Shown here: positions 10,152 to 19,290 of the stretch, in pieces
Position numbering within the stretch: position 1 is the first letter of the stretch
Layout of the letters: every line of letters begins with the position of its first letter
Position numbers and translations under genes: made by a program
The notes under the pieces: generated by a model
Told to the model about the DNA's origin: nothing
The model's input: only the letters and a program-made list of their open reading frames with translations
Databases searched by the model: none
DNA from: a virus
Virus record (IMG/VR): IMGVR_UViG_3300044972_002353
Span: 1 to 25,473 of that record
Strand: one strand, 5' to 3'
Length of the DNA stretch: 25,473 nucleotides

Positions 10152-10589
10152 TTACTTTAGGTTTTTGTAGACCTTGGCCCAATAGGCTTCAAGGTTCTTT
10201 TGCTTGGTGTCGGACATTGGAGAAGCCACTCGGTGCCAAGAACCACCGCCACCGTTCCAGATGAAACCAAGCTCCTTTTCGGTGGCTTTACGGTTCATGG
10301 TTTTTTCGATGTGTTTTGCGTAAAAATTCAGAACCCCTTTGGCGACTTCACGAGAGGTGATTTCGTCAAACATGTCCGAGTGTCTGTAATTCTTACCCGT
10401 GATGCGGTTAAAGTCCTGGACCATCACCGCGTGAATCTGAAGGATTCCAAGCGCTTTACCACGGTCGCCGATGGCAGCCGCGTTACCGTTGCTTTCCGTC
10501 CGGACTAGAGCTTCCACCAGGCGGTCGATATTTTGAGCCGAAACGGTAGCAGTAAGAGCCAGGATTGCTAGGATATGTTTGACTTTCAT
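10152..10589 (-). CDS. Secreted lytic transglycosylase (SLT-type), possible endolysin
   Basis: The protein has 145 residues from the ATG at 10589. Residues 1-18 form a signal peptide (MKVKHILAILALTATVSAQ, likely cleavage after SA). The mature part has the transglycosylase signature: catalytic E32 in VRTESNGNAAAIGDRGKALG, then GILQIH, as in SLT proteins (ES.G...G..G.LQI). These enzymes cleave peptidoglycan to anhydromuramic products. It has its own early-type promoter rather than TATAAATA, and is followed by the large branched structure. Whether it serves lysis, superinfection control or host-wall remodelling is open. I favour a periplasmic enzyme with cleaved signal over a signal-arrest-release endolysin. 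Confidence 0.8.
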   Translation of the reverse strand: MKVKHILAILALTATVSAQNIDRLVEALVRTESNGNAAAIGDRGKALGILQIHAVMVQDFNRITGKNYRHSDMFDEITSREVAKGVLNFYAKHIEKTMNRKATEKELGFIWNGGGGSWHRVASPMSDTKQKNLEAYWAKVYKNLK

Positions 10590-10598
10590 TATGATACA

Positions 10599-10626
10599 AT
10601 CATACAATATCCAGCGCGAAAGTAAA
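10599..10626 (-). promoter_or_regulatory. Sigma70-like (early-type) promoter for the transglycosylase gene
   Basis: TTTACT (10626-10621), 16-bp spacer, TATGAT (10604-10599), then 9 bp to the ATG at 10589. Upstream is a conserved ACTTAG box (10646-10641) and the sequence ATTCTTTGTG directly before the -35 box. The -10 is part of a near-palindrome ATGATacaATCAT. Predicted leader is about 3 nt. Confidence 0.75.
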
Positions 10627-11006: not shown

Positions 11007-13046
11007 TCATTTTGAAGTAGCTCTAAAAACTCCATCCCAGGATGGTCCCGGATCCGCTTTTTCTAGGTCATCAATCCGTTCCAGCATCATGTCATAGTAA
11101 TCATTGAGGAAATCCATGTGAGCTTTTAAATCAACTCCTAATTCTTTTGCTTTTTTCCAATTGCGCTCCCGATAGTAAGTCATGAAACTGTCATGGGATT
11201 TGCTGTAGACGCGTGTGCCCTTTTCAAATACCGTGTAAATCTTCACACCTTCTTTCTTACCCTTTACCGCGATGCAATCTAGTTCCAGCGTGGGATACAC
11301 GTCCTTCACATATTCTTGGGTAATGGGACCAATTACAAATTTGACTCCGTAGGGCTTCGACTGACCTTCGAGACGAGAGGCAAGGTTCACCGAATCTCCG
11401 AGGCAGGTATAATCGAACCGTTGAGTCGAGCCCATATTACCCACAACAACGGTACCAGTGTTTACGCCAAGACCCATTCCGAATGCAGGAATACCTTCCT
11501 TCGTTACCTCATCATTGAATGCCTTCAGACTTCCCAGCATTGTGAGACCCGTTTCAACTGCGTGAAGAGCATGGTCCTTGTCGTCGAGTGGTGCGTTCCA
11601 GAAAGCCATCTGGGCATCACCAATGTACTTGTCCAGCGTCCCCTGACTATCTAGAATGGCCTGTGTCATTGCCGTCATGTACCGATTCATAATCTTTGTG
11701 AGACCCTGAACGTCCTTACCGTAATGTTCTGAGATTGCGGTAAATCCACGAACATCCGTAAACATAATGGAGAGCTCGCGCGACTCACCGCCCAACTGTA
11801 AGAGAGCAGGATTCTTTTGCAGTTTCTCAACCATGGCTGGCGATAGGTACGTTCCGAACTGTTTCTTGATCTGCTGCTTGAGTTTAAACTCCATGACGAA
11901 CCGCATGAAGATAGATCCGGACCAAGTAATGAAAGCAGCAATTGTTGGCCACGTATAATCTGCGAGATAGCCTTTATTAAAAAGGTCGACTCCTGCAAAG
12001 TAAGGACAGGTAAAAACTAGTATGACGATCATGCCACTTAACCAATATGGACCCCATACTGCAATACCGATTGCAATCAGGGCCATTCCAATTCCAATTG
12101 CAATCTCGTAAAGATCGAACTCTGCGGGGCGTTCAAGTCGGTTACCGTCAAGCAACATCTGAAGTGTTTGGAGGCTGAGCTCGTGTCCATAGGCAGTACC
12201 CAATGGAGTTGCAACGGTATTTGCAAGGCCCTCAGCCGTGAGAGCAATCACGACAATCTTATCCTTCACATACCAGATGTCATCGGTATATGGAATCGAT
12301 TTGAAGGTATATTTAAAGTTAATCCAGACACGGCCATTGCCATCTGTTTTAATTGGCGGAGTGCCCGGAACACGAATGGCAGACACGCCCGATTCAGTCA
12401 CCTTGACCTGAAAGCTGGGTTGATTGCCGAATACCCGGAGGATTTCCAGTGGCATTGTGGGATACTTTTCCTTTTCAATCTGAATCATGAGTGGTAATCT
12501 ACGCATCACGCCGTCAAGCTCCGGGGCGGTCAGGAGCATGCCCACGCCCGTGGAAGCCTCGCCAATTTCTTTTAAAGGTCCGATTGCAGCAGGGTAGTCA
12601 AATAACCAATCATCCGTGCTACCACCAATTGTTGCAACACCTCTTGGAATTGGAACGCCCTTACCCTTTAATGACGCCGATTGACCAGTAATTACAGGAG
12701 CCTGACTCAGCATCTCAACAAATTCTTTATCTCCACCCAAACGGTCGGGCTCAGCAAAAATAATAGGTAGCACAACACCGGTGGCTCCATATTCCATGGC
12801 TTTTTTAATTGCACTTGCAAGTTCTGTACGCTTCCAGGGCCATTGGCCGTTCTTTTCCAATGCCTTCTCATCAATCTCCACAATTACAATATTGTCCGAC
12901 ACGACCTTGTCCTGCTTTCGCTGGTAGTAATCAAGACCTTTGAGACGCATTACCTCAATGGGATATGGATTCGTGATACGGAGACTCACAGCAACCGTGA
13001 GAAGCATAAGACCAACAAGAAGGATTCTGAGTGTATGTTTGTTCAT
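11007..13046 (-). CDS. CHASE2-domain transmembrane adenylate cyclase (class III)
   Basis: This 679-residue protein has an N-terminal membrane helix (7-24), an extracytoplasmic CHASE2 sensor domain (about 25-305), three membrane helices (about 312-332, 334-352, 363-383), and a cytoplasmic class III cyclase domain (about 420-615). The active site looks complete: metal-binding D431 (FTDVRGFT) and D477 (KYIGDAQM), adenine-selecting K473, T547 in YTCLGD, and transition-state residues N554 and R558 (VNLASR). Thr at 547 is the class IIIb version, many of which respond to bicarbonate. It would make cAMP in the host in response to a periplasmic signal. It is last in the curli operon and overlaps the FecR-domain gene by 4 bp (ATGA). 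Confidence 0.9.
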   Translation of the reverse strand: MNKHTLRILLVGLMLLTVAVSLRITNPYPIEVMRLKGLDYYQRKQDKVVSDNIVIVEIDEKALEKNGQWPWKRTELASAIKKAMEYGATGVVLPIIFAEPDRLGGDKEFVEMLSQAPVITGQSASLKGKGVPIPRGVATIGGSTDDWLFDYPAAIGPLKEIGEASTGVGMLLTAPELDGVMRRLPLMIQIEKEKYPTMPLEILRVFGNQPSFQVKVTESGVSAIRVPGTPPIKTDGNGRVWINFKYTFKSIPYTDDIWYVKDKIVVIALTAEGLANTVATPLGTAYGHELSLQTLQMLLDGNRLERPAEFDLYEIAIGIGMALIAIGIAVWGPYWLSGMIVILVFTCPYFAGVDLFNKGYLADYTWPTIAAFITWSGSIFMRFVMEFKLKQQIKKQFGTYLSPAMVEKLQKNPALLQLGGESRELSIMFTDVRGFTAISEHYGKDVQGLTKIMNRYMTAMTQAILDSQGTLDKYIGDAQMAFWNAPLDDKDHALHAVETGLTMLGSLKAFNDEVTKEGIPAFGMGLGVNTGTVVVGNMGSTQRFDYTCLGDSVNLASRLEGQSKPYGVKFVIGPITQEYVKDVYPTLELDCIAVKGKKEGVKIYTVFEKGTRVYSKSHDSFMTYYRERNWKKAKELGVDLKAHMDFLNDYYDMMLERIDDLEKADPGPSWDGVFRATSK

Positions 13047-14197
13047 TTTTGAATGATGTTTACCTTGAGTTTGTCTCCGAAGTTGAGTGGGTATACCGTG
13101 GTTCCATTCGAGTCGGTAATCTTAAACGTTGCGCTCGTGTCCGCTTTTAATTTGTATTGAATGACTCCTTTGGATGTAGAGAGATTCATTATTGCGTTTG
13201 TGCCGTCGGTTGTAAACCCATTATTGACCGTTGCCGTAACAATCAAGGTGGGTGATATATTTGCCGGGGTTGCAACTGTGACCTCTGGATTTTTTAAAAT
13301 GACTTCTGCTACGGCCTGAAGTAGCTCGGGCTGCATTGCCTTTACGTCAATGATGGCGGTTTTAGTTTCTTCCACAGGCTTTTCTTCAGCCTTAACCTGA
13401 GTAGACGTACTAGGTTCAACCTGAGCAACCGCAGTAGCGGAATCACTCTTGCCGCTTGATTTTTTGTTTGGTTTATCATCGGCCGATTCGGATGTGTTTG
13501 CCTGTGTCTGCTTTTTGGCTTCCTTTACCGCACTTGTGACGGGTTTCGGAGTCTCAACAAGAATCAGGTTATTGATTTTGCTTTCATCTTGAAAGTTAAG
13601 TATGACGGGATTTGTAGGAGCGGACTGCATTGACGCAATAAAGGTCGCCTGATATGCCTGAGTCATAAGGACACTTCCTGCTACATTTGACACCTCGATA
13701 ACTCCTACGATTCCAGGAGTTGCGCTATATTCGGGCCGCGAAGGAAGTAGAATGATGAGACTCTTACCATCCTCAGAGACAGTCATCGAAAAGTCCGTAC
13801 CACGAACAGAAATCTTTGCGGTAGGAGTTTGGACCTTAATGTTTTCTTTGCTATTCTTAGCAATTATACCCGATGCATAACGAACGGTACCGAATGCAGT
13901 CTTCATTGAGACCTTACCCTTACCGCTCGCAGGATCATACACAAATTCATCGATCTTGAGCTTCGAGAACTCGGTGATCTGCATTACCGTATGATCCTCA
14001 AATTCAATGGATACCCGAGCCTTTAAGGTCTCGATGGTATCATCCTGCTCTATCTCCGTGCCAACCTTACCTTCCAACTTATCCTTACCACGAACAATCT
14101 GAGTGGGACCAGTAACCTCGGTCAGTTTTCCGACCGAGGCACCGGCTTCAGATATAAAAATAGCCGCAAACAAAAACAGTGCTGCGGCTATGCGCAT
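13043..14197 (-). CDS. FecR-domain periplasmic protein
   Basis: This 384-residue protein starts with a signal peptide (about 1-20, ending SEAGAS). Residues 22-150 form a FecR domain: VGKLTEVTGPTQIVRG, then a TIETLKARVSIEFEDHTVMQ segment, GTVRYASGIIAKNSKENIKV and TPTAKISVRGTDFSM, the family end motif. A Lys/Ser/Glu-rich linker (about 215-270) leads to a C-terminal beta domain of unknown type. FecR domains in other systems bind or sense ligands in the periplasm, and in bacterial genomes they often neighbour CHASE2 proteins. Here the two genes overlap by ATGA, suggesting a sensor partner for the cyclase. No FecI-type sigma gene is in the window. Confidence 0.85.
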   Translation of the reverse strand: MRIAAALFLFAAIFISEAGASVGKLTEVTGPTQIVRGKDKLEGKVGTEIEQDDTIETLKARVSIEFEDHTVMQITEFSKLKIDEFVYDPASGKGKVSMKTAFGTVRYASGIIAKNSKENIKVQTPTAKISVRGTDFSMTVSEDGKSLIILLPSRPEYSATPGIVGVIEVSNVAGSVLMTQAYQATFIASMQSAPTNPVILNFQDESKINNLILVETPKPVTSAVKEAKKQTQANTSESADDKPNKKSSGKSDSATAVAQVEPSTSTQVKAEEKPVEETKTAIIDVKAMQPELLQAVAEVILKNPEVTVATPANISPTLIVTATVNNGFTTDGTNAIMNLSTSKGVIQYKLKADTSATFKITDSNGTTVYPLNFGDKLKVNIIQK

Positions 14198-14200
14198 ACA

Positions 14201-15001
14201 TTAGGGAGTCGGAGGCGAAATCGTCGCTGTTGGATTTGCGGCACCGTAATTCGATGTACCCGTAGTCATGATAGGAGCAGCAGCCGCTGTGGTCTGGATA
14301 ATCTGAACGGTGTTATTACTACCCGTTAAGTTATAGACGAGCTTCTGCTGTTCTATTCCAGCCTGATAGACGGTGAGGTTATTCGTGCTACCCAGGATGG
14401 TAACATCTTGATAATGTCCGCCTTTCTGAGTTGATGCGCCAACGCTTCCGATCTGAGTTGATTTTACGATATTTGAACTACCGGTAATATTATAATCAAT
14501 CCAGTTAAATGAAGCATTCTCAAATCCGAATTTCATCGTGTTCGAACTACCAACAACATCAATGGTGACATCGCTGTCCGCAATGGTCGCCTTTGACGTA
14601 TCGACCTCGGAGGTATGATCCACGGTCACATCTTTATTCACGGTTATTGAATTCGTGCTTCCGACCAATGACACATTGAATGTGTTGTTGGCACCATTCA
14701 TGAAGTATTTCTGAGTGTTCGTATTACCAGTGGCAACAGCAAGCAAGCTCAGGTTGTTGGCTCCGATAATAGAGAAGTCGGTACTGTTGCTATTTCCCAT
14801 CTGGCGCGTTTCAAAGGTGATGTTATCGCCGGTGATGTCACTTGCAACTCCAGAGGAGCCGATTCGATTCAGGCTGCCGACCTGAATTAGGGTTGTGGAA
14901 CCCGCTGTTGTGATTTGATTCACATATATCTGATTCTGAGCAAAGGCTGGAGTTAATAGCATAAGCCCAAGAATGAATCCTAGTTTTAGTTTTGTTTTCA
15001 T
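14201..15001 (-). CDS. Curlin-repeat secreted protein (candidate amyloid subunit)
   Basis: This protein has 266 residues and a signal peptide (cleavage near AFA-QNQ, residue 21). The rest carries ten G-x-x-N motifs, for example VGSLN 41-45, MGNSN 68-72, IGANN 79-83, TGNTN 91-95, NGANN 102-106 and VGSTN 113-117, the middle ones 11-12 residues apart. That is the half-repeat of curlins (Q-x-G-x-x-N). Many of the Gln positions have been replaced, so it is a divergent curlin; the C-terminal 25 residues are Thr/Pro-rich. It overlaps the csgG-like gene by ATGA and would be the substrate exported by the CsgG pore. Amyloid formation is inferred, not seen. Confidence 0.75.
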   Translation of the reverse strand: MKTKLKLGFILGLMLLTPAFAQNQIYVNQITTAGSTTLIQVGSLNRIGSSGVASDITGDNITFETRQMGNSNSTDFSIIGANNLSLLAVATGNTNTQKYFMNGANNTFNVSLVGSTNSITVNKDVTVDHTSEVDTSKATIADSDVTIDVVGSSNTMKFGFENASFNWIDYNITGSSNIVKSTQIGSVGASTQKGGHYQDVTILGSTNNLTVYQAGIEQQKLVYNLTGSNNTVQIIQTTAAAAPIMTTGTSNYGAANPTATISPPTP

Positions 15002-15813
15002 TTCTTTTTAGCGTTATTGTTGGTTATGTCTTTGAATTGCCAAAGACCTGCTGTTTGCCCCTGTTTTACGATTTCGATGACTGCCTGATCAATAGCGCTC
15101 CGTACGGCGATGCCGTTGGGTTCATTTGCAGTGAGACCAAGTTCTGACTCAATCGGGGTTGTTCCGTGATCATAAAATTTAAATAGATTGCCCGAGAGGG
15201 CAATACTCGTAATGGTTTTAGTAACAGCCACGCTCAAGAGGACCTCTCCAGTTTGAACGCTTACGAGTCTCAGTGACACTGTTACTACGTCCTTACGATA
15301 TTGAGTGCTGCTGGAGATGCCAAGAATACTGGCACCCGCGCCTCCCGTAAGGATATTGCTATCATATCCGATGATGCCGCCCTGCGCAATAACGCCGGCA
15401 AATAACATCGGGGTGAGTTTCTCGGCGTCTTTACCGAGGAAAGTTTCTCTTGTCTGGGAAATAAGTTGGCGTTCCTTGATAATGTCATCAAGGCTCGCGC
15501 GTTCAAGTACCTGGAACCATACGCCATTTCCTGCAAGGCGTAGTGCATCGATGAGCCAGCTCTCTGCGCCCTGCGTGACGGCAGAAGAGAATGTGGCATA
15601 CGCGTCTGCGGTCTTTCTCTGGCCCGTTTTATCAGCAAAGCCATAGACCGCAATTGTCATCCGAGGACCATCAATTGGAGGAAGTTCCGATAGCTGTTTT
15701 GCCATCGGAGACATCTGTACCTTCGGCGTCTCGATGATGCCGGGCTTGGATGGAACCGAAGCACAACCCCCGAACAACAAAGATAGTAAGAGTATGGAGA
15801 TAAATTTTACCAT
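14998..15813 (-). CDS. csgG: Curli secretion channel, CsgG-like outer-membrane lipoprotein
   Basis: This 271-residue protein has a lipoprotein signal peptide with the lipobox FGGC (C17). The sequence follows the CsgG family: 'MTIAVYGFADKTGQRKTADAYATFSSAVTQGAESWLIDAL' with its conserved DxTGQ pattern, 'WFQVLERASLDDIIKERQLI', and 'FAGVIAQGGIIGYDSNILTGGAGASILGISSSTQYRKDVVTVSLRL' with the transmembrane hairpin region, and 'VQTGEVLLSVAVTKTI'. CsgG forms the nonameric outer-membrane pore that exports curli subunits. Length matches the family (about 277). It lies between the csgF-like and curlin-like genes. No csgE, csgD, csgB or csgC is found nearby. Confidence 0.93.
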   Translation of the reverse strand: MVKFISILLLSLLFGGCASVPSKPGIIETPKVQMSPMAKQLSELPPIDGPRMTIAVYGFADKTGQRKTADAYATFSSAVTQGAESWLIDALRLAGNGVWFQVLERASLDDIIKERQLISQTRETFLGKDAEKLTPMLFAGVIAQGGIIGYDSNILTGGAGASILGISSSTQYRKDVVTVSLRLVSVQTGEVLLSVAVTKTITSIALSGNLFKFYDHGTTPIESELGLTANEPNGIAVRSAIDQAVIEIVKQGQTAGLWQFKDITNNNAKKK

Positions 15814-15816
15814 TGA

Positions 15817-16278
15817 TCAACCACCGCCTGGATTCAATGTTCCTACGGGAACTTGAATAGTTGTAGTATTGCCCGTTGCAGGATCAACAATGTAAAGAGT
15901 CACCATATCGCCATTCTTTTGCCATGTGACGGTAGATCCGCCCTGAAGATTAATGATGCCAAAGTTGGCTCCGTTAGAGTTAAAGATGGCATCAGTGACC
16001 TGAGAAGCTAATTGAGAATAGATTCGAGCCTGCAGGTTATTAATGAATGCATTAAGCGGGGTGTTCTGTGCCGTAACTTTTGCAGTTTCAGCGTCGGCTT
16101 TTGCCTGATCTTTAAATGATTGCTTTCGGGTTCTTGCAAGATTCTCAATGGTGATTTCATGGGAAGAAAACCCAATGCCGTTAAACATTGGAGACTTAAA
16201 ACCATGCACCATATCAGATGCAACGACAACCTTATTGAATAGGAGGCTGAGGAGTAGAAGTAGGAGCAGGTTTTTCAT
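15817..16278 (-). CDS. csgF: Curli secretion accessory protein, CsgF-like
   Basis: The start chosen is the ATG at 16278 (MKNLLLLLLLSLLFNKVVVA), giving 153 residues and a clear signal peptide; an ATG at 16302 would put eight residues before it. The mature N-terminus (HGFKSPMFNGIGFSS) corresponds to the CsgF segment 'F.F.NP.FGG.P' that enters the CsgG pore. The helix 'LNAFINNLQARIYSQLASQV' and the C-terminal strands 'DMVTLYIVDPATGNTTTIQV' match the CsgF core. The C-terminus ends in NPGGG. It is 3 bp upstream of csgG and overlaps the upstream membrane-protein gene by 47 bp. Confidence 0.88.
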   Translation of the reverse strand: MKNLLLLLLLSLLFNKVVVASDMVHGFKSPMFNGIGFSSHEITIENLARTRKQSFKDQAKADAETAKVTAQNTPLNAFINNLQARIYSQLASQVTDAIFNSNGANFGIINLQGGSTVTWQKNGDMVTLYIVDPATGNTTTIQVPVGTLNPGGG

Positions 16279-16549
16279 TGGTGATTGGTGCGGGTGGCAC
16301 AATATGTGGACCCCCGCGTTGCATTTCGATAGCTGTATTAATTTTTTGTTCTAGTCTAATTAAATCATTATCAAGCATACGAATTCGGTCAATCAGCGCA
16401 ATCATAGTTTTCTTTGCTTCGGACAGCTCAGAATTAATGTTCTCCGTCACAAATTTCCAAACAAAGTAAATAAAGTAACCCATACCAGCGGCAGCCATCA
16501 TTGGCATCCCGTACTGGTTGATCATCTGTTTTAGTTCAATAGGATCCAT
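16232..16549 (-). CDS. Small membrane protein with coiled coil (paralogue of the next gene upstream)
   Basis: This 105-residue protein has one probable membrane helix (residues about 16-36, MMAAAGMGYFIYFVWKFV), then a helical segment ALIDRIRMLDNDLIRLEQKI, and a Pro-rich end (PPAPITNEKPAPTSTPQPP). The helix after the membrane segment resembles the corresponding part of the upstream gene product (NRVRTMNNDLVRIDALI). Both could be holin-like or help the curli apparatus. An AAAGGA sequence 6 bp before the ATG is one of the few credible Shine-Dalgarno sites here. Its end overlaps the csgF-like gene. Confidence 0.65.
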   Translation of the reverse strand: MDPIELKQMINQYGMPMMAAAGMGYFIYFVWKFVTENINSELSEAKKTMIALIDRIRMLDNDLIRLEQKINTAIEMQRGGPHIVPPAPITNEKPAPTSTPQPPIQ

Positions 16550-16551
16550 AA

Positions 16552-16836
16552 TTAATCCTTTCTTGCATCCGTTTTACCATCACTACGTGCAAGACGTTCA
16601 AGGTCGACACGTAATCCGAATCGTGATGAGATGAGTGCATCAATCCGAACAAGATCATTGTTCATTGTACGCACTCGGTTGTTCAACATACCCGCAAGAC
16701 CATTCAAAGATTTTACATCGTCAACAACTCCAGCAAGAATATACTTGAGGAGAATAACAATGAAGACTCCGCCAGCAATAACTGCTGCAACTGAGAATCC
16801 AAGGTCCGCAAATGATTTAAGTGTTTCAAAACTCAT
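16552..16836 (-). CDS. Small membrane protein (paralogue of the downstream gene)
   Basis: This 94-residue protein has an N-terminal amphipathic part, one membrane helix (about residues 14-37, FSVAAVIAGGVFIVILLKYI), and a coiled segment GMLNNRVRTMNNDLVRIDAL, with a charged end. It resembles the product of 16232-16549 in layout and in the 'R.R..(D/N)NDL.R' segment, so the two probably arose by duplication. Size and topology are those of a class III-like holin, but the lysis role is unproven. The start overlaps the stop of the upstream gene (TAATG). Confidence 0.65.
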   Translation of the reverse strand: MSFETLKSFADLGFSVAAVIAGGVFIVILLKYILAGVVDDVKSLNGLAGMLNNRVRTMNNDLVRIDALISSRFGLRVDLERLARSDGKTDARKD

Positions 16837-17099
16837 TAGCCGTTCACAATTCGGTCAATCTGAGCTTCGAATTCCTCAACCTTTTTAATTCGATTGGGCC
16901 ATTTAATGTATTCCTTCTCAGGGTTCTTTTTGAGATTCTGAAGGAGTGGACGAATCGCTTCATATAAACGATTCAGTTTATCTTCATGGTGAGCCGCAGC
17001 CCTCTCGGCTACGTCTACCTGTTTTGTAACGTCAAGTTCGTCCTCGTCGACGGCTGTAAAACCGAAATCAAAGGTTGGTGTAGAATTATTTGTGGCCAT
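16836..17099 (-). CDS. Conserved small protein of T4-like phages, function unknown
   Basis: The start at 17099 (MATNNSTPTFDFGFTAVDED) is preferred; an upstream TTG at 17111 is less likely. The 87-residue product has the pattern 'FDFGFTAVDEDEL' followed by 'AAHHEDKLNRLYEAIRPLLQNLKKNPEKEYIKWPNRIKKVEEFEAQIDRI', which I recall as a short conserved hypothetical protein of marine T4-like phages. It is acidic at the N-terminus and helical after that. It has no signal or membrane segment. It is not obviously related to curli, so it may be a phage core gene inside this operon. Confidence 0.75.
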   Translation of the reverse strand: MATNNSTPTFDFGFTAVDEDELDVTKQVDVAERAAAHHEDKLNRLYEAIRPLLQNLKKNPEKEYIKWPNRIKKVEEFEAQIDRIVNG

Positions 17100-17253
17100 A
17101 TTCAAAAGCAAGGATAATGATAGATGCGATAGTGGATCCCAGAAATATTCCGATTAATAGACACCAGAACATATTACAGTTGGTCCATATACGACCTTGC
17201 AATGAAGTAATCGCATACTTCTCAGCTAGACATGTTGGTACCGACTGTTTCAT
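17086..17253 (-). CDS. Small single-pass membrane protein (55 aa)
   Basis: A short frame from the ATG at 17253 (MKQSVPTCLAEKYAITSLQG) to a TAA at 17086. The C-terminal half is a strong membrane helix (NMFWCLLIGIFLGSTIASII), and it ends FEYGHK. It overlaps the start of the next gene by 14 bp, is first in the late operon, and lies right after the hairpin and T-run. It has no recognised family. Size and overlap with the next gene support it, but coding is not certain. Confidence 0.55.
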   Translation of the reverse strand: MKQSVPTCLAEKYAITSLQGRIWTNCNMFWCLLIGIFLGSTIASIIILAFEYGHK

Positions 17254-17262
17254 AGGATGTAA

Positions 17263-17300
17263 ATAAAAAATGCCGCCTCATCATAAGATAAAGCAGCATT
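17263..17300 (-). terminator. Terminator-like hairpin right behind a late promoter
   Basis: On the minus strand AATGCTGC (17300-17293) pairs with GCGGCATT (17276-17269), 8 bp including one G-U, with a 16-nt loop, followed by a run TTTTTTATTT. It could end transcripts coming from the beta-helix genes. It also lies between the late promoter at 17310-17317 and the first gene of the curli operon, so it would be at the very 5' end of that mRNA. Confidence 0.65.
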
Positions 17301-17309
17301 CAGTATGGC

Positions 17310-17317
17310 TATTTATA
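17310..17317 (-). promoter_or_regulatory. T4-type late promoter for the curli/cyclase operon
   Basis: Exact TATAAATA on the minus strand. With normal spacing +1 falls at 17304, four bases before the hairpin 17269-17300. The first gene starts at 17253 and the operon runs to 11007 with overlaps or gaps of a few bases. A 12-bp palindrome, ACCAGATCTGGT, lies just upstream at 17322-17333. No other promoter is apparent in the operon. Confidence 0.75.
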
Positions 17318-17426: not shown

Positions 17427-18011
17427 TTATTTAGTCTTAATGAAAGTACCAGCCTCTACAGGTTTGAATATGTTTTTGAAACCGCGGGTTTGAATGGCGC
17501 GGAAAACGAAATATGGCCACCAAATGATCTTTGGAATCTTGACGACCTTAATGTTGGAGTCCGTAATGTCTGGCATTTCTGCATCCCACAGTTTGAGAAC
17601 GAGCGGAGCTCCACCTACAGACTTAGTAAGGCTGATTTTACCGTTACGGGTTGGTTTGCGACCGATGTACCAATAGTTATCGTATTGGCCAAATTCCATA
17701 TCACAGTCATCACCATTTACAATGAATGACACGTCGCGGATAATATATCCATCGACGGAACCCTTAATGGTAATACCATTCTTGCGAGGAGCAAGGACTG
17801 TATTGTTGAACGTATAGTTCGAACCTCTTACGGCGTCAATACAGTCTTCCTTGCCCCCTTCAATGGTACAACCATCAACGACGATATTCGTGCAGTTGGA
17901 GAACTTAAGGACATCGGAGGTTTGAGTCCAATCAGCCGGTGCAATGACCCGGTTGGAAATTACTGTTCCGTCCTCACCCGCGTGGGACTCTAGGTTTTTA
18001 TCGGCAGCCAT
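17427..18011 (-). CDS. Right-handed beta-helix-like protein, probable virion or adhesin component
   Basis: This 194-residue protein has the ladder pattern of a parallel beta-helix: CTNIVVDGCTIEGGKEDCID, SNYTFNNTVLAPRKNGITIK, VDGYIIRDVSFIVNGDDCDM, with regularly placed Asn/Gly/Val. Such folds occur in tail spikes and pectate-lyase-like proteins. No catalytic residue set is clear to me, and it is much shorter than a typical spike. The C-terminal 50 residues are hydrophobic/aromatic (PKIIWWPYFVFRAI) and then basic. It has no signal peptide. It is 2 bp behind the small protein at 18014-18268, and both depend on the late promoter at 18298-18305. Confidence 0.55.
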   Translation of the reverse strand: MAADKNLESHAGEDGTVISNRVIAPADWTQTSDVLKFSNCTNIVVDGCTIEGGKEDCIDAVRGSNYTFNNTVLAPRKNGITIKGSVDGYIIRDVSFIVNGDDCDMEFGQYDNYWYIGRKPTRNGKISLTKSVGGAPLVLKLWDAEMPDITDSNIKVVKIPKIIWWPYFVFRAIQTRGFKNIFKPVEAGTFIKTK

Positions 18012-18330: not shown

Positions 18331-19290
18331 ATGCGTTTTGTAATTATATTCTGTATGTCACTGATTTTGACTGGATGCAGCATGATGGGTGGCTTTAAAC
18401 TCCCAAGTCTTAACTCTAATAAGACAGGAGACAGCGCTGGAACCGTAGCCGCAGCAACCGCAACATCAGCAGCTGTGGATCGTATGGCAGAAATTAATAG
18501 ACGGAATGAAGAGACCCGGGCGGCAATGGAACTAGAATATGCCAAGTTCCGGGAACAGCTCACGGCTGCATATAACAATCGAGAGAAGCTCGATAACGAT
18601 AACTTTGATCGGATCTCCGAGATTAATTATGGCATTTTTAAAGCCACTGAAGAACTTGTAAGTGTAGACACTCGCGTCCTCATTGCAAATCTAAAGTCCA
18701 AGGAGAATATGGCTCGCCTTATGCCGATCACCGAGGCAATGAAGAAGACAATTATTGCTGAAATTGAAGCGGACCGTAAAAAACTAGAAGTAGACATCGT
18801 GAAGAAATACGAAGCGCGAGTCAAGGAAGGCGAAGCGGCTGCAGCTGCGTTTGAAGCTGCGGATAAACTCGTCAAGGAGAAAGAAGCCGAAAAGGCTAAA
18901 CTCCGAGACCAGCAGTCTGAACTTTTAGCTAAGCTCAAGGCGAGTCAGGATGCTGAGCGAGCAAAGCTTCAGAAGGAAGCAGCAGATGCTGTGGCAGTTG
19001 CCAAAGAGAAGCAACGCCTCGAGATGGTTGGCTGGATTGTCAAAGCCTTATTAGGTGTGGGCATAGTAATCCTTGTGATCGGCTTCCTGATGAAGTCTCC
19101 CACATTTATTGTGTCAGGCATTGCAATGCTAGGACTCGCCTACGTTGCAGCAACCATTCCATTCTGGGTCGTGGCAAGTATCATGGGTGTCTTTGTAATC
19201 GTGATGGTAATGATGGATCCAAAGACTGGCAAGATCTCAATGCTTGGTAAAAAGAAAGAGGAGCCAGTAACGGCTCCTCCGAGTGCTTAA
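18331..19290 (+). CDS. Coiled-coil lipoprotein with C-terminal membrane helices (unimolecular spanin-like)
   Basis: The product has 319 residues. Residues 1-16 are a lipoprotein signal with lipobox LTGC (C16). Residues about 50-232 are a long charged helix with heptad character, rich in Ala, Lys and Glu. Three hydrophobic helices follow (about 233-254, 257-276, 278-296), then a basic tail with GKKKEEP. Unimolecular spanins (as phage T1 gp11) also have an outer-membrane lipid anchor, a periplasmic helix, and a C-terminal inner-membrane anchor. This protein is over twice as long and has three membrane helices, so the assignment is inference. A late promoter in front suits a lysis role. An alternative is an envelope-remodelling or scaffold protein. 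It is alone on the plus strand between minus-strand blocks. Confidence 0.6.
   Translation: MRFVIIFCMSLILTGCSMMGGFKLPSLNSNKTGDSAGTVAAATATSAAVDRMAEINRRNEETRAAMELEYAKFREQLTAAYNNREKLDNDNFDRISEINYGIFKATEELVSVDTRVLIANLKSKENMARLMPITEAMKKTIIAEIEADRKKLEVDIVKKYEARVKEGEAAAAAFEAADKLVKEKEAEKAKLRDQQSELLAKLKASQDAERAKLQKEAADAVAVAKEKQRLEMVGWIVKALLGVGIVILVIGFLMKSPTFIVSGIAMLGLAYVAATIPFWVVASIMGVFVIVMVMMDPKTGKISMLGKKKEEPVTAPPSA
19258..19279 (+). repeat. Perfect 8-bp inverted repeat within the end of the spanin-like gene
   Basis: GAGGAGCC (19258-19265) and GGCTCCTC (19272-19279) flank a 6-nt loop in the last codons of the gene. It has no T-run, so it may protect the mRNA 3' end together with the hairpin just downstream at 19294-19310. 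Confidence 0.5.

Follow-up and report, generated by a model that had tools for sequence, protein, structure and literature searches.

Why would a bacteriophage carry genes for curli secretion next to genes for a membrane sensor with an adenylate cyclase output? Such phage modules turn up often in virus collections. Here we analyze one such module in IMG/VR virus record IMGVR_UViG_3300044972_002353, a 25-kb linear fragment from a T4-like myophage (25,473 nucleotides; this whole stretch is termed the window). The module lies entirely on the minus strand, from 17253 to 11007, and a preliminary description of this DNA had given its coordinates correctly. We hold, with about even confidence, that it is a phage type VIII (curli) secretion unit that has its own membrane sensor, is expressed late, and deposits amyloid on the infected cell.

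Gene content, late promoter and linkage

The genes of the module are, in order, a 55-aa open reading frame (ORF), a 91-aa ORF, tm1, tm2, and the genes for CsgF, CsgG, a curlin-like protein, a FecR-domain protein and a CHASE2-adenylate cyclase (Table 1). The parts list in the preliminary description is borne out by profile searches of each protein, as it had proposed: CsgF, CsgG, FecR and the CHASE2-cyclase all match in Pfam, and the curlin-like protein is recognized through its homologs. The tight packing that it noted is also present, with 4-base overlaps at CsgG/curlin and FecR/cyclase, 3-base gaps at CsgF/CsgG and curlin/FecR, and most module neighbors overlapping by a few bases or lying 2-3 bases apart. 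A longer overlap of 71 bases, between tm2 and CsgF, reflects the TTG start of the listed CsgF ORF, which lies upstream of the likely ATG.

Table 1. Positions of the module genes, their domains and the upstream promoter-like element in the window.
Feature	Position	Strand	Basis or remark
T4-type late promoter-like octamer TATAAATA	17310..17317	-	exact match
55-aa ORF, window-type clade only	17086..17253	-	ORF; no Pfam/PHROG match; present in L005 and L013
91-aa ORF (ATG at 17099), window-type clade only	16836..17111	-	no family match
tm1, single-transmembrane coiled-coil protein, at place of published 'histidine kinase'	16552..16836	-	phrog_18771 4.4e-24
tm2, diverged paralog of tm1	16232..16549	-	phrog_18771 1.7e-30; alignment
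CsgF, likely start ATG 16278	15817..16302	-	PF10614 1.5e-16; internal ATG ahead of signal peptide
CsgG, outer-membrane secretion pore lipoprotein, lipobox LFGGC	14998..15813	-	PF03783 2.8e-49
Curlin-like repeat protein	14201..15001	-	motif count, homolog matches, AlphaFold
FecR-domain protein, signal peptide-like N-terminus	13043..14197	-	PF04773 8.6e-10
Curlin-like C-terminal segment of FecR, about residues 334-384, ends VNIIQK	13046..13198	-	profile match to last curlin repeats
CHASE2-class III adenylate cyclase	11007..13046	-	PF05226 9.3e-41; Guanylate_cyc PF00211 7.8e-19
CHASE2 extracytoplasmic sensor domain, residues 19-323	12078..12992	-	PF05226
Cyclase catalytic domain, residues 423-605	11232..11780	-	PF00211; catalytic residues

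The octamer TATAAATA, which corresponds to the late promoter of the preliminary description, is found just upstream of the module in all 12 close relatives checked, and the window holds five exact copies where about one is expected by first-order Markov chance. This conservation supports a unit that would be expressed late.

Three components of type VIII secretion are present, namely a CsgG pore lipoprotein, a CsgF adaptor and a curlin-repeat substrate. CsgG also matches the NCBIfam CsgG model (4.1e-46, under the model's curated cut-off), and its lipobox cysteine, Cys17, is invariant in the CsgG alignment. No match to the CsgE gate, the CsgC chaperone or the CsgD regulator was obtained among the module proteins; since these three are stated to be absent from alphaproteobacterial curli systems (PMC9599517), we did not treat them as required for membership. 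The window's curlin-like protein has no direct Pfam match. However, 40 of 50 aligned homologs match Curlin_rpt PF07012 (best 2.5e-9), and a phage curlin profile finds curlins adjoining CsgG in alphaproteobacteria. The protein contains 12 G-x(1-2)-N motifs, compared with 2.5 expected by shuffling (maximum 10 in 2,000 shuffles), and its AlphaFold model is an all-beta repeat with a predicted local distance difference test score (pLDDT) of 82. It is likely to be the secreted substrate.

The preliminary description had also suspected a dedicated system, a view that receives support from the contig survey it had proposed. Anchored scans return the best 80 of more than 500 matches, so their counts are not random samples. 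With FecR as the anchor, 95 phage loci were read using profiles built in this analysis; scans anchored on CsgG and on the cyclase were added against anchoring bias, and loci were counted where at least 7 kb was available on both sides. CsgF, curlin and FecR accompany CsgG in 30/30 such loci and the cyclase does so in 29, while all 18 cyclase-anchored loci are complete, the tm pair included. In both of these scans linkage is near-obligate even where gene order and strand differ, and many contigs do have the tm pair or the cyclase on the opposite strand. Module-bearing contigs reach 364 kb, and seven tested contigs of 286-364 kb all carry the T4-type capsid protein Gp23. The occurrence of the module in these large contigs and in a divergent T4-like clade with a G+C content of 43% is new here. 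Five contigs from bacterial metagenome-assembled genomes (MAGs; L026, L028, L030, L031 and L059) were treated as misbinned phage contigs on account of a tm pair or a phage-type layout. Separately, OR851715.1 (L004:232-954), a 1.5-kb contig in an unverified record labeled Salmonella phage, encodes a CsgG; its DNA is probably of bacterial origin.

A curlin-like tail on the FecR protein

What could join the secretion genes to the sensor genes is suggested by the C-terminus of the FecR protein. When a profile was built from the final 70 residues of FecR, it matched the final two curlin repeats over 41 columns with a score of 28.2 (E 3.2e-4). The same tail scores 13.9 against reversed curlin and at most 15.0 against 60 column-shuffled curlin profiles, and 60 shuffled FecR profiles reach at most 17.5 against curlin. 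Control C-termini from CsgG, CsgF and the cyclase score no higher than 13.1, and those of FecR proteins from bacterial loci without curli, whose tails are not curlin-like, score 13.9. As in curlins, the chain ends in a hydrophobic-x-hydrophobic-x-Q strand in 71 of the 73 unique C-termini of phage FecR proteins and in both Caulobacteraceae proteins described below, whereas just 8 of 80 FecR proteins encoded at bacterial loci that lack curli have it. Among FecR tails not used before, 57/70 have the end motif, and in nearly all the remainder it lies a few residues short of the C-terminus. Because the matching segment is short, shared descent with curlin is likely rather than proved. We also considered and rejected full curlin repeats (QxGxxN) throughout FecR; just six scattered matches occur, and therefore the curlin-like part is limited to the C-terminal segment. 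The AlphaFold model has an N-terminal FecR/PupR-type domain that matches the PupR C-terminal signaling domain (6ovk, E 7.7e-4), a low-confidence linker (238-324), and then, at the C-terminus, five strands that form a segment of their own (pLDDT about 83-91). The recognition of this tail is new here, and it offers a possible physical link, concrete enough to test, between the exported fiber and the sensor.

In the mechanism we propose, CsgG would form the outer-membrane pore and CsgF its cap, and the curlin-like protein would be exported by Sec, secreted, and assembled into amyloid on the surface of the infected cell. FecR itself would be exported to the periplasm, and there its FecR domain probably pairs with CHASE2 of the cyclase, which lies in the inner membrane. 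The curlin-like C-terminal strand of FecR might bind or report curlin subunits or fibers, such that cyclic AMP (cAMP) output would track the secretion state. An amyloid coating or altered adsorption is plausible, and the benefit could be an altered surface that provides superinfection exclusion or captures neighboring hosts. More tentatively, FecR may be a fiber-coupled receptor that docks curlin by its own strand and, across the periplasm, informs the CHASE2 cyclase of secretion or fiber status. It would then act as a feedback sensor for amyloid secretion in phages and in a mobile bacterial operon, and its cAMP reader in SAR11-type hosts would be something other than classical CRP.

A FecR domain could instead point to iron-type regulation, with CsgG serving as a large open pore for the uptake of cofactors, siderophores or nutrients. 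Uptake has been proposed for phage CsgG (PMC7029224 and PMC9599517), and no CsgE gate is present to close such a pore. However, uptake would need neither curlin nor CsgF nor the cyclase, and the FecR protein does not conform to the FecI/FecR/FecA anti-sigma type: beyond its signal peptide-like N-terminus it has the PF04773 domain only, with no anti-sigma part, and the module showed no gene for a sigma factor (FecI) or a TonB receptor. We therefore regard the uptake explanation as very unlikely.

Cyclase output and competing explanations

The catalytic residues of the window's cyclase are intact (D431 and D477 for metal, K473 for substrate, and the Asn/Arg pair N554 and R558). Across module cyclases the two metal-binding Asp residues, the Lys and the Arg are invariant in 65/65, while the catalytic Asn is replaced by Ser in 25 of these, the type found in phage Melnitz. 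Activity or product may differ in the Ser enzymes. A receptor for the product is scarce: the cNMP-binding domain (PF00027) was found in 0/23 phage records (the window included, some of them fragments) and in just 2/60 SAR11-family genomes, some incomplete, with Escherichia coli and Caulobacter controls positive. A phage-encoded cAMP receptor was accordingly rejected, and the same counts make a classical cAMP-CRP route doubtful for SAR11 phages. The earlier suggestion that the phage raises cAMP to act on its host is thus not supported for SAR11 phages.

The Ser substitutions and the lack of a reader weigh against a sensor-coupled amyloid unit, as does the brevity of the FecR-curlin match. To these can be added that the model of the curlin-like protein has no significant fold match among PDB structures (best E 0.03), that clumping was not seen in Melnitz infections (PMC9004378), and that in Sinorhizobium meliloti the FecR gene adjoining CyaD1 was dispensable for signal perception (PMC5498481).

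Could the cyclase itself be the effector? It might drain ATP, flood the cell with cAMP or disturb cyclic-nucleotide defense signaling, with FecR and curlin restraining it until late. Invariance of the metal-binding Asp, Lys and Arg residues would fit such a role, as would the absence of a cAMP reader from the phage records and most SAR11-family genomes. Nonetheless, the fixed linkage to CsgG, CsgF and curlin would be unexplained, and loss of the catalytic Asn in so many module cyclases is hard to reconcile with it; we judge this explanation quite unlikely.

Lysis timing has been put forward for Melnitz, whose CsgGF was discussed as a lysis-timing pore with csgA stated to be lacking (PMC9004378). 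In that case CsgG/CsgF would be a repurposed, pinholin-like pore, and curlin, FecR and cyclase would be accessory parts for timing or gating. The proteins encoded by tm1 and tm2, next to csgF, do have the size and layout of small membrane proteins of the holin type. Directly downstream of the cyclase, moreover, the window encodes an SLT transglycosylase with a signal-peptide-like N-terminus (10152-10607, minus strand; PF01464 4.5e-6), which is retained in close relatives. However, the proposal was built on the absence of csgA, whereas curlin-repeat genes are present in Melnitz and at all 30 of the well-flanked CsgG loci. In the Melnitz record two curlin-repeat proteins are annotated, along with a FecR protein and a cyclase, and the second curlin matches the NCBIfam CsgA model at 1.3e-5, under the cut-off. 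In addition, the CsgG pore belongs to the outer membrane, whereas it is the inner membrane that governs when lysis occurs. This explanation is unlikely in our view.

Related systems and a mobile bacterial unit

CsgF and CsgG were previously reported in pelagimyophages (Zaragoza-Solas et al. 2020, PMC7029224). The preliminary description had suggested that the full set was novel. This was wrong, since a module of histidine kinase, CsgF, CsgG, CsgA/B, FecR, in some cases a further CsgA/B, and adenylate cyclase had already been published by Wittmers et al. 2022 (PMC9599517), who described it for both podophages and myophages and recorded its expression in metatranscriptomes. The window shares with that Pelagiphage module the order CsgF-CsgG-CsgA/B-FecR-adenylate cyclase and the one or two small proteins ahead of it, called 'histidine kinase' there, but the window clade lacks the second curlin, has a G+C content of 43%, and has small proteins without a kinase match. 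To the module as published, our analysis adds the naming of the CHASE2 domain, the recognition of the FecR tail, and bacterial FecR/cyclase loci. HTVC008M (KC465899) and Melnitz (MZ577097) carry eight genes, tm1-tm2-CsgF-CsgG-curlin-FecR-curlin-cyclase, in an order shared with the window, and their cyclases are 41-43% identical to its own; unlike the window, they have the second curlin gene and place the module directly after gp32 rather than upstream of gp59/gp32.

Among bacteria, the enterobacterial csgBAC/csgDEFG operons and alphaproteobacterial curli operons share CsgF, CsgG and a curlin-repeat substrate with the window. Relative to csgBAC/csgDEFG, the module lacks CsgC, CsgD and CsgE and adds FecR and the CHASE2 cyclase. 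FecR-domain genes adjoining CHASE2 cyclases are known from Sinorhizobium and Campylobacterota (PMC5498481, PMC9239204); the S. meliloti SMc02177/CyaD1 pair and the Campylobacterota cluster resemble the window in this respect, but curli genes are not reported there.

Both halves occur together in two Caulobacteraceae MAGs (L027:5110-11048 and L029:5094-11048), in a six-gene unit of CsgF-CsgG-curlin-curlin-FecR-CHASE2/cyclase. In one MAG the unit is flanked by ordinary chromosomal genes (Vgb-like lyase, metallophosphoesterase, TetR, amidohydrolase, acyl-CoA dehydrogenase). Alignment of the two loci is confined to the unit (5,990 bp, 87.4%), and the flanks are unrelated and higher in G+C content. 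By this comparison, which involves MAGs on both sides, the unit is a block that moves between bacterial loci. It was found in 2/199 genomes of the family, and neither FecR nor the cyclase is present in five other curli operons read from alphaproteobacteria. Because the unit sits at unrelated chromosomal sites, these data go against the view that FecR and the cyclase are phage-only additions; that they would belong to the unit outside phages too is new here. Trees leave the direction of transfer between phages and Caulobacteraceae unsettled (CsgG phage clade 90/45; approximately unbiased test P for phages held together, 0.25 for FecR and 0.39 for the adenylate cyclase).

Such mobility, with a G+C content below that of the flanks, would also fit capture of a bacterial mobile curli operon as a passenger cassette, the sensor being kept merely as part of the block. 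Yet the module stays intact across very divergent phages, also after rearrangement of order and strand, and phages normally lose genes that serve no purpose, which makes a passenger most improbable.

For the small proteins ahead of csgF (94 and 105 aa, each with one transmembrane segment and a coiled coil), searches of Pfam, PHROGs, NCBIfam and PDB sequences returned no kinase, and an upstream histidine kinase was rejected for the window module on this basis. From position, we infer that they are the 'HK' of the published authors. A scan with the pair returned at least 80 loci, with CsgG in view in 57 and most of the others cut off; the pair was seen in phage-like contigs only.

Elsewhere, the window encodes T4-like head closure, DNA end protector, tail tube and baseplate hub proteins, the gp32 single-stranded DNA-binding protein, the gp59 loader and DNA ligase. 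Against 50,697 phage records its sole matches are short ones in gp32, with no near relative, and no Rfam element was found in it. A 140-kb relative has a one-piece tmRNA (L318:5854-6222), about 23 tRNA genes and a G+C content of about 43%; HTVC008M differs, at 33.5% in the fetched stretch. Upstream of the late promoter, a 194-aa fragment of right-handed beta-helix or GH28-like type (17427-18011, minus strand) may belong to a tail-spike or receptor-binding protein. Beyond it, on the plus strand, a 319-aa lipoprotein-like protein with a coiled coil and a transmembrane segment (18331-19290) has its own copy of TATAAATA 6 bases ahead of its start.

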